Origin: Plantactinospora mayteni | Lineage (GTDB): Bacteria > Actinomycetota > Actinomycetes > Mycobacteriales > Micromonosporaceae | DNA: 64,000 nt | Direction: 5' to 3' | Assembly (NCBI RefSeq): GCF_016862935.1 | Contig: NZ_BONX01000009.1 | Span: forward strand, 186,001 to 250,000 | Shown here: one piece after another, positions 3,442 to 29,815 of the stretch | Layout: each line of letters starts with the position of its first letter | How positions within the stretch are numbered: the stretch's first letter is position 1 | Notes under the pieces: generated by a model | Database searches by the model: none | Told to the model about the DNA's origin: nothing | Seen by the model: the letters and a program-made list of their open reading frames with translations, nothing else | Position numbers and translations under genes: made by a program

Positions 3442-3810
3442 CGATGTCACCTCCGGGTGCGGCGGGCGCGGCGGGTGGGTCGGCCGCGTGCGGATGCTAC
3501 TTCGCGCCGGGTTGCCGGCCGGGCGGGGGTGTCGCGGGTTCGGGCGCCTGCGCTCCCTGTCCCGGTGGCTGCTGGCTGTGGGATGTTCGGCCGGCTCGGT
3601 CTTTCCGGCGGCTGCTCGCTGGCGACCGGACGCTGGTGCGCGCCGGGTTCCGGTCGATTGCGCTCCGGGTTCCGGTCGATCCTGGACGGCGAGGAGGGCG
3701 TCGAGGTGGTCGACGAGGAGGGCGTCGAGGTGGTCGACGGTGCCGGACCGCCGCCGGGTGACCCGTGTCGTTGCCGCCGCCGGCTCGACGCCGCCCCAGA
3801 GCCGGCGTGG
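3442..3810. other. Gene-poor interval with short tandem repeats
   Basis: No convincing gene. The stretch has the same high GC as its neighbours and contains two short direct repeats (one listed separately; the other is a 16-base unit near 3643-3658 and 3665-3680). It holds the upstream region of the minus-strand Hsp70-like gene; no clear -35/-10 pair is seen. Confidence 0.5.
3691..3738. repeat. Perfect 24-base tandem duplication
   Basis: Two identical 24-base units (3691-3714 and 3715-3738) lie head to tail between the Hsp70-like gene and the EEP hydrolase gene. They are in no supported gene. This looks like a simple slippage duplication. Confidence 0.8.
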
Positions 3811-4596
3811 TCAGGCGAGGTCGACGACGAGTGGCCGGTGGTCGGAGATGGTGGCGATCGGGGCGTCGACGGCGGTGACGGCGGGCAGTGGGTGTCCGTC
3901 GCGCGGGTCGGCGAGGATGTGGTCGAGTTGGACTCGGGGTTGCCGGGCCGGGTAGGTGGGGCGGCGGGCCAGGGAGCGCCAGCCGGAGACGAGGGTGGCG
4001 AGCCCGGCCGGCAGGTTGAGGTCGCCGAGCAGGATCCGGGGCGGTGGCAGGGTACGCAGGGCGCGGATCACCTGGCGCAGTTGTCGGATGTTCCAGCCGG
4101 GTACGAAGGACAGGTGGGTGGCGGCGGCGGTGATCGGCCCGTACGGGGTGTCGAGGATGGCGGCGAGGACGACCCGGGGTTCGTCGCGGAGCATGATGAT
4201 CCCGCCGCGTGGGCCGGGGTCGAGCACCGGAGAGCGTACGGGTACCGGGGCCAGCCGGGTGACCTGCCAGGTCCGGACCGGGTAGCGGCTGATCAGGCCG
4301 ATGCCGTAGAGGGGTTCGCCGTGCCCGTCGTCGTCGTGGGTCAGGGGCCGGAACCGTTCGCCGGGGGTACCGACGACGGCGGCGGCGAACCGGTGTTCGG
4401 GGGCGTCCATCGCGCTCGCGGCGATGGCGGTCAGGTCGAGGTGGTTGCTGCGGGACTGGTCCCGGTCGACCTCCTGGAGGGCCAGGATGTCGGCGTCGAG
4501 GGTGGCGACCGCGGCGGCGAGCCGGGTCTCGTCGACGAGGCCGTCGTGCGGGGATCGGCCGTGCAGGAGGTTGAAGGTTGCCAGGCGCACCTGCAC
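3811..4596 (-). CDS. Endonuclease/exonuclease/phosphatase (EEP) family hydrolase
   Basis: 261 residues, GTG start. It opens with the EEP signature RLATFNLLHG, followed by DADILALQEVD (metal-binding Glu), THLSFVPGWN (catalytic His region), RILLGDLNLPAG (Asp and Asn of the GDxN motif) and ATISDHRPLVVDLA (final SDH-P motif). This set marks a Mg2+-dependent phosphoesterase of the DNase I/sphingomyelinase fold. No signal peptide or membrane helix is visible, so it is probably cytoplasmic. Substrate (nucleic acid, phospholipid or small phosphoester) cannot be told from sequence. It is not tightly linked to its neighbours. Confidence 0.85.
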   Translation of the reverse strand: MQVRLATFNLLHGRSPHDGLVDETRLAAAVATLDADILALQEVDRDQSRSNHLDLTAIAASAMDAPEHRFAAAVVGTPGERFRPLTHDDDGHGEPLYGIGLISRYPVRTWQVTRLAPVPVRSPVLDPGPRGGIIMLRDEPRVVLAAILDTPYGPITAAATHLSFVPGWNIRQLRQVIRALRTLPPPRILLGDLNLPAGLATLVSGWRSLARRPTYPARQPRVQLDHILADPRDGHPLPAVTAVDAPIATISDHRPLVVDLA

Positions 4597-23606: not shown

Positions 23607-24281
23607 TCAGAGGTGGTCGCGCAGCCGCGACCAGGCCAGGACCACCTGCACCCGGTCCGGAACACCGAGCTTGGCCAGCACGTTCGACACGTGCACCTTC
23701 ACCGTGTAGCGGCTGATCGTGAGCCGCTGCGCGATCTCGTCGTTGGAGAGCCCGTCCGCGACCAGTTCGCAGATCTCCCGCTCACGCCCGGTGAGCCGAT
23801 CCAGCGAGCGCAGCAGCGTCCAGTCCTGCGGCACCGCCAGCCGGGGCCGGAGCACCTCGACCAGCCGGGTCGTCGCCTCCGGGGCGAGCACCGCCTGACC
23901 GGACGCCACGATCCGGATCCCGTCGCGCAGCCGTTCGCCCGGGGCATCCTTCAACAGGAAACCGCTGGCGCCGGCCTGGAGCGCGGCGTACACGTAGCTG
24001 TCCAGGTCGTACGTGGTCAGGATCAGGACCCGACTGCGCGGCCCGTCGTCGGCAGAAGCCCGGGAGACGATCCGTCGGGTCGCCTCGATACCGTCCATCC
24101 CGGGCATCCGGATGTCCATCAACACCACGTCGGGACGGTGCTCCCCGACCAACTCCACCGCCTGCTCGCCGCTGGCAGCCGTACCGACCACCGTCAGCTC
24201 CGGTGCGACGTTGACGAGCCGGGTCAGCGCCTCCCGGAGCAACTGCTCGTCGTCGCAGACCAGCACCCGGACCGGAGTCAC
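23607..24281 (-). CDS. NarL/LuxR-type response regulator of the AmoC-like cluster
   Basis: 224 residues. Receiver domain with the acidic pair in VLVCDDEQLLREAL, phospho-acceptor Asp in DVVLMDIRMPGMDG and Lys in GFLLKDAPG. The C-terminal LuxR-type HTH reads LTGREREICELVADGLSNDEIA then SRYTVKVHVSNVLAKLG in separate helices. It is the last gene of the operon and probably acts with the kinase just upstream. Two GTG starts are possible because the junction is duplicated: 24281, or 24314, which overlaps the kinase stop as GTGA and adds 11 residues. Confidence 0.92.
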   Translation of the reverse strand: MTPVRVLVCDDEQLLREALTRLVNVAPELTVVGTAASGEQAVELVGEHRPDVVLMDIRMPGMDGIEATRRIVSRASADDGPRSRVLILTTYDLDSYVYAALQAGASGFLLKDAPGERLRDGIRIVASGQAVLAPEATTRLVEVLRPRLAVPQDWTLLRSLDRLTGREREICELVADGLSNDEIAQRLTISRYTVKVHVSNVLAKLGVPDRVQVVLAWSRLRDHL

Positions 24282-24337
24282 GACGGCGCCCGTACCCGTA
24301 CCGGCAGCAGTCACGACGGCGCCTGTACCGGCAACAG
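24278..24337. repeat. Imperfect tandem duplication at the kinase/regulator junction
   Basis: A 33-base unit (24278-24310) and a 27-base unit (24311-24337) share nearly all positions; the longer has an extra CGTACC. The duplication contains the end of the kinase gene and a GTG start for the regulator, so each copy offers a start. Confidence 0.75.
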
Positions 24338-25438
24338 CGCCCGTACGGCGAACCCGCCGTCCGGCAGCAGGCCGGCCTCGAACGACCCGCCGACGAGTTG
24401 GACCCGCTCCCGCATACCGGTCAGCCCGATGCCACCGCCGGTCGAGATCGGCCGCCGGTGTCTCGGCGCCGTGTTGCTGACCCGGACCACGAGTTCCCCC
24501 GGCGAAAAGGTGATCGACACGTCCACGTCCACCGCGCCCGCGTGCCGGACCACGTTGGTCAACGACTCCTGCACCACCCGGTAGGCCGCCAGCTCGACGC
24601 TGGCGGCCACCGGGCGGGCGGTACCGCAACGGCGGAGCCGGACCCGCGGGCCCCGCTCCGGCACGGCCCGGACCAACTCGTCCAACTGGGCCAACCCCGG
24701 CGGCACGGCCAGCGGGTCGTGGCCGTCGTCACCTCCGGCACTGCGGAGTACGCCGAGCAGCCGGCGCAACTCGGCCAGCGAGCCCCGCCCGGTCTCGGCG
24801 ATCCGCCGCAGCGCGACCCGGGCCTCGGCCGCGTCCCCGGTCTCCGCCGTCGCGTCCGCGTCCAGCACCATCGCGGTGACCGCGTGGTTGAGGATGTCGT
24901 GCAGTTCCCGGGCCAGCAGGACCCGTTCCCGTTCCGCGGCCCGGGTCACCGCCAGTTCCCGTTCGACCATCAGCCGCCGGGAATAGGCGTCCAGCTCACG
25001 GATCCGGCCGCGCTGCCGGGCGCCCAGCCGGCCGATCGTCCAGAACCCGGACAGGATGACGGCGACGACCACGAACGCCGAGGCGCTGAGCGCCGGGTTG
25101 CTTCCCTTGGTCACCAGACTGAACACCAGGATCGACAGCAGTACGCCCAGCCCGAAGGCGATGCCGAGCCGCTGCTGACGCCGCCGTCCCCAGGCGCCGA
25201 GGCCGGCGACCGCCACCAGCACCCCGACGAAAATCGACTGGTGCACCAGCGCCAACACCAGCTCCAGCCCGGTCACCACGACCAGGACGGCCAGCGGAAA
25301 GCGCCGGTATCCCAGCAGCGCGACGGACTGGGCGACGGCCAGCCCGAACAGCCGCCAGTGCCCGTGAGCCGGCCCGTCGGCAACCGCGACGACCCAGGCG
25401 GCCAGCGCCGGAAGCCCGACGACCAGGCCGTCGCTCAA
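24311..25438 (-). CDS. NarL-family sensor histidine kinase of the AmoC-like cluster
   Basis: About 375 residues. The first 150 hold four or five membrane helices with very short loops, so sensing is probably within or at the membrane. The dimerisation/phospho-acceptor helix is ERVLLARELHDILNHAV (HisKA_3, His at about 177). The ATPase part has the N box ESLTNVVRHAGA and GGGIGLTGMRERVQLVGG. The start proposed is a TTG overlapping the stop of the preceding gene (TTGA); no better ATG or GTG is available before the first helix. The partner regulator follows directly. Confidence 0.9.
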   Translation of the reverse strand: MSDGLVVGLPALAAWVVAVADGPAHGHWRLFGLAVAQSVALLGYRRFPLAVLVVVTGLELVLALVHQSIFVGVLVAVAGLGAWGRRRQQRLGIAFGLGVLLSILVFSLVTKGSNPALSASAFVVVAVILSGFWTIGRLGARQRGRIRELDAYSRRLMVERELAVTRAAERERVLLARELHDILNHAVTAMVLDADATAETGDAAEARVALRRIAETGRGSLAELRRLLGVLRSAGGDDGHDPLAVPPGLAQLDELVRAVPERGPRVRLRRCGTARPVAASVELAAYRVVQESLTNVVRHAGAVDVDVSITFSPGELVVRVSNTAPRHRRPISTGGGIGLTGMRERVQLVGGSFEAGLLPDGGFAVRALLPVQAPS

Positions 25439-26019
25439 CCACTCCAGCCCTCCAGACCGGCCCGCCGACGCAGCGGCCTGGTCCGGATCCAGCCGTACAC
25501 CAGGAGGGGGACGATCGGGATCCAGGGGAGCACCGAGACGATCCAGCTCACCGCGAACGGCGGCCCCGGCGCCGGCTCCACCCGCAGCGGGAGGACGCCG
25601 GTCACCGTACCTTGTGGACTCTCCACCGTGAACTCGAATCGCCACGTGCCCTCCTCGGTCAGCGCGACGACGTCGAGACCCCACACGTCGCGCGCCCGGG
25701 GGTGCCTCGGCAGCACCAGTGCGTCGCCCCGCCGGTCGAGGCCGATCGTCCGGACCGCGTCCTCGGTCTCGCCAGACGGCGAGACTACCCGGAGCAGACC
25801 CGTACGGCCGTCGATGCCGCCCTCGGGCTCGAAGGTGAAGTCCAGGGAACGGTGCGACTCCAGTGGCCACCGGCTGAACGAGGCGGTCAGGGTCGACGCG
25901 CCGATCTGGACCCGTTCGGCGTGCACGATGTCGATCGGCGCCGGTGCCGCCGCGGCCGGTGCACCGGTCGCCACCACCAGCAGGACGGCCGCCGCACAGG
26001 TGGCCCACAGTCGCCTCAT
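25435..26019 (-). CDS. Exported, C-terminally membrane-anchored Ig-like protein of the AmoC-like cluster
   Basis: 194 residues. A Sec signal peptide (about 1-24, ending APAAAA) is followed by a beta-rich domain of about 120 residues and then one membrane helix (WIVSVLPWIPIVPLLVYGW) with a basic cytoplasmic tail. The shape resembles small periplasmic-facing cupredoxin/CopC-like or PmoD-like accessory proteins, but I see no Cys or His/Met cluster in the mature domain, so metal binding is not supported. It begins in the ATGA overlap with the AmoC-like gene and ends overlapping the kinase start. Function unknown. Confidence 0.8.
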   Translation of the reverse strand: MRRLWATCAAAVLLVVATGAPAAAAPAPIDIVHAERVQIGASTLTASFSRWPLESHRSLDFTFEPEGGIDGRTGLLRVVSPSGETEDAVRTIGLDRRGDALVLPRHPRARDVWGLDVVALTEEGTWRFEFTVESPQGTVTGVLPLRVEPAPGPPFAVSWIVSVLPWIPIVPLLVYGWIRTRPLRRRAGLEGWSG

Positions 26020-27152
26020 GCCGGTGCCCCGTCCAGGGCGAGCCCTGCCGGTCCGGTGCGGCCCGGTGCGGCCAACTCCCGGCCACGAACCAGGGCGGCG
26101 CAGCGCCAGCCGAACCAGCCCGTCGCGCCGGAGAGCAGGGCGGTGACCAGCAGGGTGACCGGCCGGTTGAGCCCCGACTCCAGGAACGCGTACATCAGGG
26201 CGGTGAGCAGGCCGGCGACCACCCCGAGGACCGGTACGACCCGGGTCGGCGCGGCGGCGCGGCGGCGGGCGTACCAGAGCACGGCCGCGACGAGCAGCAT
26301 CACCACCGGGTACGCGGCCGGCAGGAAGATGCCCGGGGAGATGCCGGCGGCGTAGTCCCGGAACGGCATGTCGATCGCGTCCGCGTACCAGCGGGTGGCG
26401 GCCGGGGTGAAGAGGATGATCCCGACCTGCGTCGTGAGGAAGACGAGTCCACTGGCCAGCAGCCACCGCACGCTCCGGGTGACCCCGACCGCGAGACAGA
26501 CGACCAGGGCGGACGCCACCCCCATCAGCACGGTACGCGGCCCGAGCGCCGGAAACACCCGGCTGACCGGATCCGACAGCACGTTCGCCAGCTGCGTCGA
26601 GCCCATCACCCCGACCGCGCAGGCTGCGGCGAACGCCCACCGCTGCCCCCGGCTCGGGCCGAGCACCGTGGCGGCCATCACCACCCCGACAAGCTCGGTG
26701 AAGATGCAGAGCGCGAGGCCGAGATGTGACGGGGTGGAGGCGAGCGCGATGTCGAAGCCGTAGAAGTCGTGCCACCACAGGTCGGCGACGCCGTACAGCA
26801 GGTTGCCGGCCGCGCCGACCCCGCCGACCAGGAACGGGAGCGGGGCCCGGAAGACCCCGAACACCCGTACCGCCGGGCGGTCGCCGTCCAGGCCGGGCCG
26901 CCAGGTGTTCACCAGGACCACGGTGAGGCAGGTCAGGCCCATGATCGCGGTACCGGAATAGAGCAGCAGGTGCGGCGCGGTCCAGAAGTTGTCCGGTCCC
27001 ACGTCGTTGTGCCACTGCCCGTCCCAGGTCAGCCCGAGCAGCAGGCTGAGGTACCCCGCGAGCAGGAACCAGGCGCCGATCACCTCCCGGCGTGGACGGC
27101 CGGAGCCGGCGGTCGCCGCCGGTTCGGACCCACCGGATTGCAGCACGGTCAT
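26016..27152 (-). CDS. Multi-pass membrane protein with two AmoC/PmoC-like D-x3-H...H motifs
   Basis: 378 residues with about ten membrane helices. Residues 43-61 read WDGQWHNDVGPDNFWTAPH, giving D44-x3-H48-x12-H61. AmoC of ammonia oxidisers, as I remember it, has DASWHQVIIRDTSFTPSH: the same D-x3-H-x12-H spacing, plus shared Trp, second Asp and Thr. In PmoC these three are copper ligands. A second motif at residues 124-143 reads DLWWHDFYGFDIALASTPSH and can be lined up with a later AmoC segment (EWGHAFWFMEELFSAPLH) with one gap. The comparison is from memory, not an alignment search. The gene starts 14 bases after the FixH-like gene and overlaps the next gene by ATGA. Best reading: a distant CuMMO subunit C relative, or a copper-binding membrane protein sharing the site. 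No enzymatic activity is established. Confidence 0.75.
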   Translation of the reverse strand: MTVLQSGGSEPAATAGSGRPRREVIGAWFLLAGYLSLLLGLTWDGQWHNDVGPDNFWTAPHLLLYSGTAIMGLTCLTVVLVNTWRPGLDGDRPAVRVFGVFRAPLPFLVGGVGAAGNLLYGVADLWWHDFYGFDIALASTPSHLGLALCIFTELVGVVMAATVLGPSRGQRWAFAAACAVGVMGSTQLANVLSDPVSRVFPALGPRTVLMGVASALVVCLAVGVTRSVRWLLASGLVFLTTQVGIILFTPAATRWYADAIDMPFRDYAAGISPGIFLPAAYPVVMLLVAAVLWYARRRAAAPTRVVPVLGVVAGLLTALMYAFLESGLNRPVTLLVTALLSGATGWFGWRCAALVRGRELAAPGRTGPAGLALDGAPA

Positions 27153-27166
27153 GCTCTCTCCCTTTC

Positions 27167-27580
27167 CTATCGCTGGACGGAAATGCCGATGGTGACGGCG
27201 TCGGCGCCGGCGGCACCGTGGATCCGGATCGTCAGCTCCCAGGCGCCGGGCATGGCGAAGAACTCGCCCCGGGCCCGGAACCGGCCGGGCCGCTCGGGTT
27301 CGGCGGCAATCTCCGGCATCGCGTGGCCCATGCTCGGCATCGCCGCCGAGAGCGACACCACCGTGCCGGCCGCCGCCGGTACACCACCGGACGCGACGTC
27401 GAGGTCGGCCTCGACAACTCCGGTACGGGCCGGCACCAGCGCGATGCTGACCGCGTACCGCTCGCCGGAGCCGGTCAGCCGGGCCGGCGCGGAGTCGGAC
27501 CCGACGGCACCGACGACCCGGAGCACCCCGACGGTGGCGGCCAGCACCAGCAGGACCAGGAGCAGGCGGGCCCGCTTCAT
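27167..27580 (-). CDS. FixH/YtkA-like exported protein
   Basis: 137 residues. One N-terminal membrane helix or uncleaved signal (residues 4-24) is followed by a single beta-sandwich domain of the FixH/YtkA type. It contains the family's PSMGHAMPEI segment and ends in a W-E-L-T-I-R strand (PGAWELTIRI). YtkA-like domains occur beside copper transport and cytochrome oxidase genes. The Met/His pairs in MPSMGHAMPE could bind Cu(I). It overlaps the upstream 456-residue gene by ATGA, so the two are translationally coupled. Confidence 0.8.
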   Translation of the reverse strand: MKRARLLLVLLVLAATVGVLRVVGAVGSDSAPARLTGSGERYAVSIALVPARTGVVEADLDVASGGVPAAAGTVVSLSAAMPSMGHAMPEIAAEPERPGRFRARGEFFAMPGAWELTIRIHGAAGADAVTIGISVQR

Positions 27581-28947
27581 GCCGCCCCCGGCCCGGGTAC
27601 GACGTCGACGACGAACGGCACCGTGACGATCTCGAAGTTCCGGACGTACTGCGTCCAGGCCAGGTAGCGGCCGGGGGCGGGGAAGCTGAAGGTGAACCGC
27701 AGCCGCGGCCCGTACCCGCCGACGGTGTCGTCCGGTGCCTGACCGGTGCCCGACATCGCCATCGCCATCGCCATCGACCCCGACTCGTGTACGTGGCCGA
27801 GGAAGTCGCCCCGCTGGTTCCGTACGATCAGGTGCCCCGCCATCCCCAGCCAGGACTGTAGGTCGGCGTGCCCGGTGTCGACCTCGACCAGGGTCGGCCG
27901 GCCAACGACGGGCCGCTGCGGGCTGGTCGTCACCACCACCCCGGCCTCCGGTACGGCCGTCCCGGCCCGGGCCTCGCCCGCGACGGTGAACTCCCCGGTC
28001 AGCAACTGCGCGCCGGAGTCGAGCCGTTCGACCTCCACCGCCGCCAGATACCGGCCGGGTCGGTCGACCCGCAACCCGACGGCGAGCCGGCCGGCAGCGG
28101 TCCTCAGTGGATGGGCGTGCCGGAAGAAGCCGCCGTCCTGACTGGTCACCACCAGGTGGCCCAGCGCCGCGTGGTGCGGGACGAGATCGTCCACCGGCCG
28201 CCCGGTCGCGCCGTCGAACAGGTCCAGCCGCAGCGTGAACTCCTCGCCGGCCCGGGGCACGGCCGGATCGGTACCGACGACCGGCTCGACGTACGGGCGG
28301 CCGGCCGGCACCGTCCCGGCCGCCCGTACGGCCGCCGCTGCGCCATCGGGCGGCACCGGTGGCAGTTGTGCCGACATCACCGCGACGGTGAACGCGACCA
28401 CGAGCGCGACGACCGCGCCGCCACCGAGGGCGGTCGCTGGCAGCCGCCGGGACGCGGCGGCGGTGAACAACGCCCCGACCAGCAGGAGCGCGGCGACCCC
28501 GAACGCCACATGCCCGGCCAGGACCCAGGGCGCGACCCGGGGCCGCAACACCCGGAACGGCAGGATCGACCGCTCCGCGCCGGCCCGGAGTTCCAGCTCG
28601 TGTGCCCCGGTCTGGGTCACCCGCAGAGTGCTGGGATAGGTGCCGGCCCGGGCCTGCACCAGGTGCACGGTGCCGGTACTGGCCCGCTGCCCGGTGCCGG
28701 GACCGACCGCCAGACCGACGGCCAGGTCCCGGACCGGCTGGTGCGCGATCACGTCGACGTACAGCGGTCCGGGGACCTGCCGGGCGTACCGGATCACCAC
28801 CGTCAACTCGACGCTGCCGATGGTCTGGGCCAGGCGTACGTCGTCGGTGTCGGCACCGCCGTGCGCCGCCGCCGGGGCCGGCCAGCCGAGCACCACGACG
28901 AGGCCGAACACGAGGACGGTGCCGAACAGCCGGGTGAGCATGCGCAA
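27577..28947 (-). CDS. Exported three-domain membrane protein with predicted N-terminal His (AmoB/PmoB-like layout)
   Basis: 456 residues. A signal peptide ends PAPAAA, so cleavage after residue 28 would leave His29 as residue 1 (HGGAD...). AmoB/PmoB also begin with His after cleavage (HGE...), where it is a copper ligand. A beta domain (about 35-135), two membrane helices (about 141-165 and 171-192) and two further beta domains (about 220-325 and 335-452) follow. AmoB has domain-TM-TM-domain. The last two domains carry H-x-H motifs: FFRHAHP (H277/H279) and FLGHVHE (H385/H387). The first domain lacks the H-x-H that AmoB has there, so sequence homology is unproven and only the layout matches. 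First gene of the six-gene operon. Confidence 0.75.
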   Translation of the reverse strand: MRMLTRLFGTVLVFGLVVVLGWPAPAAAHGGADTDDVRLAQTIGSVELTVVIRYARQVPGPLYVDVIAHQPVRDLAVGLAVGPGTGQRASTGTVHLVQARAGTYPSTLRVTQTGAHELELRAGAERSILPFRVLRPRVAPWVLAGHVAFGVAALLLVGALFTAAASRRLPATALGGGAVVALVVAFTVAVMSAQLPPVPPDGAAAAVRAAGTVPAGRPYVEPVVGTDPAVPRAGEEFTLRLDLFDGATGRPVDDLVPHHAALGHLVVTSQDGGFFRHAHPLRTAAGRLAVGLRVDRPGRYLAAVEVERLDSGAQLLTGEFTVAGEARAGTAVPEAGVVVTTSPQRPVVGRPTLVEVDTGHADLQSWLGMAGHLIVRNQRGDFLGHVHESGSMAMAMAMSGTGQAPDDTVGGYGPRLRFTFSFPAPGRYLAWTQYVRNFEIVTVPFVVDVVPGPGAA

Positions 28948-29210: not shown

Positions 29211-29472
29211 GTGGCTGAGCGGATCTTGATTACCGGCGCCACCTGTCACCTGGGGTCGCGTGTGGCCGAGCGCGCAGCAGCTGCGGGTGGTCGGTCGTCG
29301 GCACCTACCTGCGCGCCGCCAGTGAGGTTGCTGACGAGCAGTTGGACGTCCGAGACGCTGCCGCGGTTCGTGCGCTGGTGCGCCGGTTCCGTCCGGATGT
29401 GGTGATCCATACCGCTGCCGGCCGAGGTGACTGGCGGGTCATCGCCGATGGCGCCGCCCACGTCGCGGTGGC
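29211..29472 (+). pseudogene. Frameshifted fragment of a dTDP-4-dehydrorhamnose-reductase-like (RmlD) gene
   Basis: Begins VAERILITGATCHLGSRVAE, the N-terminal NAD(P)-binding motif (GATGxLG, with one Gly changed to Cys). Near 29285-29300 the frame shifts and continues as LDVRDAAAVRALVRRFRPDV then VIHTAAGRGDW, the next conserved strands of the family. Similarity stops at about 29472, where a Tn3 transposase fragment begins on the other strand. Only about 85 of the usual 280-300 residues remain. It is broken by frameshift and truncation and probably inactive. Confidence 0.7.
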
Positions 29473-29474
29473 CA

Positions 29475-29815
29475 CGGCTACGCAGGGCAGTCGCGTGGTC
29501 CAGATGATCCGTACGGGTCTGCTCCCGCTCGCCGTACGCCCGCAGCTCACCCATCGCGATCCCGAGCCGCTGCGACAACCGGCCCACCGCGGCGGCCGGC
29601 GCCGCCGACACCTCATCGGGCACGAACCCGAGTCACGGCAGCGTCCACAACTGGACCGCCACGCCCAGCACGTTGCGGCCCGTACGGAACTGGCGCACGA
29701 ACACCTCGTCCGCACCGGTCAACGTGAAGTACCGGATCAGCTCAGCCCGGTTGAGCTCCGGGAAGCCCCGAAGCCGCGCCAGTTCCTCCGCCGAGAACAC
29801 GTCCTGAGTCGCCAC
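29475..29815 (-). pseudogene. N-terminal remnant of a Tn3-family transposase (DUF4158), with in-frame stop
   Basis: On the minus strand MATQDVFSAEELARLRGFPE starts the DUF4158 region of actinobacterial Tn3 TnpA. The frame reads through FTLTGADEVFVRQF and VQLWTLP, then meets TGA (29633-29635) where relatives have Trp, and continues in the same frame with LGFVPDEV, GELRAYGEREQTRTDHL. A single G-to-A change would make this stop. The remaining 850 or so residues are absent; the fragment abuts the reductase relic. It is dead. Confidence 0.75.

Follow-up and report, generated by a model that had tools for sequence, protein, structure and literature searches.

According to the accessible part of PMC12576850, the copper site CuC of particulate methane monooxygenase (pMMO) is formed by Asp156, His160 and His173 and the site CuD by Asn227, His231 and His245, and studies reported there suggest CuD, which belongs to subunit PmoC, as the active site of the enzyme. 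A different use of copper by a polytopic membrane protein is found in YcnJ of Bacillus subtilis, in which, from what the available part of PMC13344008 describes, the CopD domain in the membrane is fused with CopC and YtkA domains, and the protein takes part in the import of copper and the metalation of oxidase. Here, we analysed a six-gene operon of Plantactinospora mayteni located at 23607-28947 on the minus strand of a 64,000-nucleotide stretch of contig NZ_BONX01000009.1 (positions 186,001 to 250,000; the whole stretch is called the window below). The genes are numbered 1 to 6 and their products P0001 to P0006. The third product, P0003 (26016..27152, minus strand; 378 residues with ten predicted helices), has an AmoC/PmoC-like core, and the sequence comparisons support its being a distant relative of AmoC/PmoC that carries both predicted copper triads.

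P0003 and the C subunits of copper monooxygenases

The sequence-only reading of this DNA had pointed to two copper-site-like motifs in P0003, and both are present, as D44-x3-H48-x12-H61 and D124-x3-H128-x14-H143. Homologues do not lack these Asp and His residues, a loss which that reading had taken as the sign of a wrong prediction: D44, H48, H61, D124, H128 and H143 are invariant in 87/87 close relatives, the window sequence included. Across the wider set, too, no locus row departs from these residues (32/32, 21/21, 17/17 and 80/80), the 150 rows representing about 136 distinct places by comparison of coordinates and the best-scoring domain being taken for each locus. The 80 loci were fetched with patterns covering D44/H48 or H61, so that the invariance of the first triad is partly built in, while that of the second triad is unaffected.

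A family profile of 11 sequences gave 15 hits at E<=10 among the PDB chains, 14 of them AmoC/PmoC (best E 0.0032). When aligned by hhalign with seven plasmid-borne XmoC sequences (C subunits of the AmoC/PmoC/HmoC kind; seven fetched of 10 hits), the P0003 family reached a probability (Prob) of 85.4, compared with 0.2 for the PmoA control. A 38-sequence core alignment matched XmoC with Prob 88.3 and a score of 45.2, the maximum being 22.8 in 100 column shuffles of the XmoC alignment and the PmoA, PmoB and reversed XmoC controls giving 16.5, 15.0 and 10.4; profile similarity to AmoC/PmoC, whose absence had been set out as grounds for dropping the proposal, does exist. The core was picked by the motif pattern (87/87 close relatives and 27/32 other loci) and then thinned from 114 to 38 sequences, so its column conservation is partly built in by this selection. 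The hidden Markov model (HMM) of the core found 11 of 13 XmoC loci, with independent E-values from 3.6e-7 (Rhodococcus HmoC) to 0.017 at a database size set to 5000, and missed two Methylocystis XmoC loci; the 13 comprised seven plasmid loci, three near-identical actinobacterial ones and three of 80 phage ones. In all 11 loci found, the six ligand columns hold D, H, H, N, H and H.

Given this in-register alignment and the ligands listed in the accessible part of PMC12576850, D44/H48/H61 are the counterpart of CuC and D124/H128/H143 that of CuD. The Asn of CuD in XmoC is Asp in 150/150 locus rows of the P0003 family (some places counted twice). Further positions also correspond between P0003 and PmoC, namely W47, D54/D166, D134/E237 and P141/P243. 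With profile similarity found and the triads in register, the earlier proposal of a remote relative of subunit C stood. The likeness to AmoC/PmoC/HmoC (PF04896) extends over a core of about 120 residues with D-x3-H-x12-H and (N/D)-x3-H-x13/14-H; P0003 differs in its greater length with ten predicted helices, in the exchange of the CuD Asn for Asp, in belonging to a family that lies below Pfam and NCBIfam thresholds, and in having no A or B partner that we could find. As searches for subunits A and B found neither, P0003 should be filed as a distant XmoC relative and not as a copper membrane monooxygenase (CuMMO).

Nothing meaningful was detected for P0003 in Pfam or NCBIfam at E<=1, and no match to AmoC; six further members stayed below the cut-offs of PF04896, TIGR03078 and NF041641 (best E 0.23, 0.2 and 0.055, respectively). 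In the window's genome (9.84 Mb, 123 contigs) PF04896 had 0 matches, and it matched in 3/396 genomes of the phylum. Since no scanned member reaches a Pfam or NCBIfam cut-off over the core, the family is easily missed in present annotation.

In the AlphaFold2 (AF2) model of P0003, with a predicted local distance difference test score (pLDDT) of 80 from 11 sequences, D44/H48 and D124/H128 lie close to where a helix ends, and H61 and H143 close to where the following helix begins, such that the two triads are placed on successive helix hairpins. The two ligand loops contain on average 0.02 and 0.00 Lys+Arg, compared with 3.1 at the N-terminus and 4.0 in the inter-ligand loop, a distribution that by the positive-inside rule would have both ligand loops face the outside. 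Both predicted copper sites are expected on the outer side of the membrane, together with the secreted partners.

Among 64 core sequences placed in a tree, the 11 XmoC grouped as a single clade (100/99) whose branch measured 2.47 changes per site; the tree is unrooted, was built from hand-picked sequences and carries a long-branch warning. The other 53 sequences came from Actinomycetota, Deinococcota and one further phylum.

Partner proteins and the search for subunits A and B

Gene 1 (27577..28947, minus strand; an alternative ATG start lies at 28941) encodes P0001, a protein of 456 residues with a signal peptide, for which the AF2 model (pLDDT 88) gives a beta domain, two transmembrane (TM) segments and two more beta domains. 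The domain-TM-TM-domain layout described earlier for this product was recovered in similar form, with one beta domain in excess of it. Each of the last two beta domains contains a His cluster, H264-x12-H277-x-H279 and H372-x12-H385-x-H387, and the His residues of both are invariant in 28 sequences aligned of 82 available. P0001 itself matched nothing in Pfam or NCBIfam at E<=1; at the same threshold, 6/28 family members matched YtkA weakly and 9/28 matched Filamin-type Ig repeats.

The beta-TM-TM-beta layout and the His clusters of the H + HxH type resemble PmoB by analogy only, for P0001 lacks profile similarity to it, has a third beta domain and does not conserve the N-terminal His. In fact, the P0001 family gave Prob 1.6 against PmoB and no PmoB among its 2 PDB sequence hits, and the best 50 of 1555 Foldseek matches were Ig-like multidomain proteins, with PmoB not among these. 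The residue after the predicted signal peptide, located with a simple pattern in 81 relatives, was His in 27, Asp in 52 and unread in 2. On the Prob value, the PDB and Foldseek matches and the unconserved N-terminal His, we rejected P0001 as a relative of PmoB, and the suggestion of a remote B-like subunit was abandoned.

P0002, the product of gene 2 (27167..27580, minus strand; 137 residues), appears to be a YtkA-like domain, anchored or secreted, with an invariant P82-x-M84-G85-H86 in 14 sequences. Its score against Pfam YtkA was 23.0, just under the cut-off of 25.9; YtkA was matched at E<=0.01 by 11/14 family members scanned, and against the PDB the family matched a 'Copper resistance protein' at E 1.2e-4. 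The FixH-like accessory protein of the sequence-only reading is thus recognised as P0002, a YtkA/FixH-like protein. Likeness to YtkA/FixH-like proteins (PF13115, PF05751) is found in the P0002 family (11/14) and weakly in that of P0001 (6/28); P0002 itself differs in falling under the Pfam cut-off and P0001 in matching nothing.

The P0003 family occurs in three builds, of about 330-420 residues alone, about 490 with a C-terminal domain and about 600 with N- and C-terminal extras. The C-terminal domain of 22 larger members matched the P0002 family with Prob 86.6 and a score of 44.1 (maximum of 30 shuffles, 15.4) and the P0001 family with Prob 58 and a score of 41.7 (shuffle maximum 16.9); to PmoB it gave no match. 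From the match to the P0002 family, a YtkA-type domain accompanies the C-like core, in some cases encoded by its own gene and in others fused to it. P0004 was also tried as the fused domain and rejected, its score of 17.3 being lower than the shuffle maximum of 21.5. At two loci, L037 and L038, the 600-residue type lies in a single open frame together with a sequence that we read as short-chain dehydrogenase-like; this could be a real fusion or two adjoining genes in frame.

Gene 4 (25435..26019, minus strand) encodes P0004, of 194 residues, with a secreted domain and a C-terminal hydrophobic stretch; it belongs to no Pfam family and had no match in Pfam or NCBIfam at E<=1. Its family matched repeats of KIAA0319-like protein in the PDB (E 0.0012), which we take to be Ig-like. 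The alignments A6, A7, A8 and A9 hold 28, 23, 23 and 14 sequences, each being part of the available set, and alignment A2 omits the incomplete or broken members L022, L024 and L027.

The sequence-only reading had noted that no A subunit was visible, and neither PmoA nor PF02461 had any match in the window's genome, the PmoA search matching two control plasmids whose sequences are in the query alignment and the PF02461 search having no positive control. PmoB likewise had 0 matches there, again with two matching control plasmids whose sequences are in the query alignment. P0004 and P0002 were considered as relatives of PmoB and rejected (hhalign Prob 1.7 and 3.7), and the search for a hidden A subunit next door recognised none among the largest recurrent neighbour clusters.

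Distribution, gene order and neighbours

Searches with the single P0003 sequence matched in 6/101 genomes of relatives and 7/396 of the phylum, the window's own counted in each. The 11-sequence profile reached 50/396 Actinomycetota genomes (the window's own included), 37/201 genomes of a further bacterial phylum and 18/111 genomes in the phylum of a Deinococcales metagenome-assembled genome (MAG). A first contig scan of named genomes with one P0003 sequence found nothing; with an alignment as query, 167 relatives were found and 80 kept, in actinomycetes including Nonomuraea, Lentzea, Nocardia, Amycolatopsis and Kribbella, and also in a Deinococcales MAG and one MAG titled 'bacterium'. As there was no P0003 match in six same-genus genomes (0/6), the operon looks patchily inherited. 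Plasmid-borne copies of P0003 were not found at E<=1e-5 in 72,556 records.

Among other C-type genes, two loci in genomes of G491's phylum have paired neighbouring C-like genes (L266, 5371-7874; L267, 5841-8266), and both genes of L267 have lost the Trp before the first His and kept D-x3-H-x12-H. On a Nitrosomonas sp. sh817 plasmid typed as conjugative (L223), an amoC gene at 3659-4474 stands about 1.1 kb from a tyrosine-type recombinase, with no amoA or amoB listed in the 8.4 kb fetched.

The gene order proposed for a check in other genomes proved to be well kept: genes 1-2-3-4 retain order and strand in 70/80 loci. Together with the invariance of the six residues in 87/87 close relatives, this indicates that the motifs are not due to chance. 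The other 10 loci have only genes 3-4 in place (six), genes 1-2-3 (two) or genes 1-3-4 (two), and in two of the six with 3-4 only, genes 1 and 2 lie nearby in a different arrangement. Gene 4 adjoins gene 3 in 78/80 loci, one of the other two being at a contig end. At L102 and L128, which are MAG loci, genes 3-4 are present and no hits were found for genes 1, 2, 5 or 6. The neighbour survey used a crude GC-based caller of open reading frames (ORFs) and listed clusters present in at least 8 loci, those under 12 loci being unannotated. Genes 1-4 and the two-component pair account for the six largest recurrent clusters around the 80 loci; the next one, in 12/80 loci, we read as a short-chain dehydrogenase.

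In the window, the six genes run head to tail on the minus strand, as the sequence-only reading had it, and all six ORFs are present with the ends that it gave. Genes 1/2 and 3/4 overlap by ATGA and genes 4/5 by TTGA, and a 14-base gap separates genes 2/3, as read from the sequence. The earlier figure of 14 bases for the widest gap is valid for the junctions of genes 1-5 and fails at gene 6 when its start is put at 24281, which leaves a gap of 29 bases; since the in-frame GTG at 24314 gives instead a GTGA overlap with gene 5, we prefer it as the start. Gene 5 (24311..25438, minus strand) encodes P0005, a sensor histidine kinase of 375 residues (HisKA_3 + HATPase_c), and gene 6 (23607..24314, minus strand) encodes P0006, a NarL/LuxR-type response regulator. 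HisKA_3, HATPase_c, Response_reg and GerE were all over curated cut-offs, so the kinase and LuxR-type regulator recognised earlier do form a NarL-type two-component system adjoining the other genes. Two pieces that match successive parts of DUF4158 (PF13700), with a stop between them, lie immediately before the operon on its upstream side, at 29246-29815 on the minus strand. We take this domain to be the N-terminal part of Tn3-type transposases, and the pieces look like a decayed mobile element.

Possible functions of the operon and their meaning

The relation of the core to AmoC/PmoC, the invariance of the ligands, the gene order, the partnership with YtkA and the failure to find PmoA or PmoB are supported by the observations presented above. 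On balance, and with confidence only just beyond even, we read genes 1-4 with their PmoC-type site as a copper acquisition or delivery complex; the family of P0003, which is widespread in bacteria and unnamed, probably handles copper. The products of genes 1-4 would form an extracytoplasmic, membrane-anchored copper complex in which P0003, sharing ancestry with the C subunit of CuMMOs, would be the integral subunit with both triads kept in outward loops. P0002, the His-rich beta domains of P0001 and P0004 may capture copper outside and pass it to or from the P0003 sites, and the complex may acquire or deliver copper, for instance to cuproenzymes of the envelope as YcnJ does in Bacillus, under the control of the kinase and regulator of genes 5-6. 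As in YcnJ, a polytopic membrane part would work with a YtkA-like domain, here encoded by a separate gene and fused in relatives; unlike YcnJ, the membrane part would be of the PmoC and not of the CopD type. No CopC domain was detected in P0003 by Pfam. Copper binding, the formation of a complex, the direction of copper flow and the signal of the kinase are what we infer here.

Several results weigh against this picture. When the six ligand columns were masked on both sides, the score dropped from 45.2 to 24.2, compared with a maximum of 20.1 in 60 shuffles, so the match of P0003 to PmoC leans on the ligand columns, and an alignment of 23 close relatives matched PmoC with a Prob of only 13.5, the register being unchanged. 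A Foldseek search of the PDB with the P0003 model found none at E<=0.001, PmoC not being in the best 50 of 448 matches. Pfam detected no CopD in P0003 or in 23 family members, no copper-gene cluster was recognised beside the 80 loci (clusters under 12 loci unannotated), and it is not obvious why a transporter should keep both triads in all cases, a feature that would also fit an enzyme. The first of these results, the share of the profile score that falls on the six ligand columns, is what would be seen if an unrelated membrane family had evolved similar metal triads independently, and the missing structural match agrees with it, since Foldseek found none at E<=0.001 among viral models either (best 50 of 187 matches). 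We regard such convergence as very improbable, because it would have to yield both triads in matching order and almost identically spaced, placed on consecutive helix hairpins in the model and accompanied by further shared positions, and the masked profiles still score above all 60 shuffles.

P0003 could also be an O2-activating copper enzyme, with the catalytic site of the superfamily residing in C and used without A and B while YtkA-type domains supply the copper. The correspondence of the CuC and CuD ligand sets and of D54/D166, D134/E237 and P141/P243 would be expected in that case, as would the role suggested for CuD of PmoC in the accessible part of PMC12576850. However, the CuD Asn is replaced by Asp in every locus row, searches of the window's genome found neither PmoA nor PmoB, and the largest recurrent neighbours included nothing recognised as an electron donor or a metabolic cluster (smaller clusters unannotated), such that we hold an enzyme made of C alone to be a real but rather unlikely possibility. 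Less probable still is a copper or redox sensor, in which P0003 and its partners would perceive external copper or O2 and pass the signal on by way of the coupled kinase. The kinase and regulator genes do follow genes 1-4 directly in the window, and in 22/80 loci a P0006-like regulator hit is found at most 4 kb downstream and on the same strand, in 30/80 at most 6 kb upstream; yet it is elsewhere in 2 and absent in 26/80, NarL-type hits are generic, and L102 and L128 have genes 3-4 and no P0005- or P0006-like hit. The copper-handling system reusing the site, which the sequence-only reading had offered as an alternative to an oxygenase, is retained as acquisition or delivery of copper, the sensor variant being ranked lower.

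In the literature covered, which leaves most subscription papers and preprints beyond it, we recognised no description of a PmoC/AmoC-like family outside CuMMOs. We put forward, as a doubtful idea, that AmoC/PmoC is one specialised branch of a larger unnamed family, some members of which are O2 (or small-molecule)-activating enzymes without A and B; this larger family would include Actinomycetota, Deinococcota and probably further phyla. If such C-only enzymes exist, the C site would be the original catalytic core of the monooxygenases of methane and ammonia, and one that suffices by itself. Two old questions are touched by this, namely at which of its copper sites pMMO carries out its chemistry and from what the enzyme arose. 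A broad family that keeps the ligands of CuC and CuD, and for which neither PmoB nor subunit A could be detected, is a natural minimal C subunit. Should the P0003 family bind copper, the chemistry of CuC and CuD could be studied apart from the remaining enzyme; should it only move copper, this would suggest copper handling as the role from which the site of the monooxygenase was recruited.

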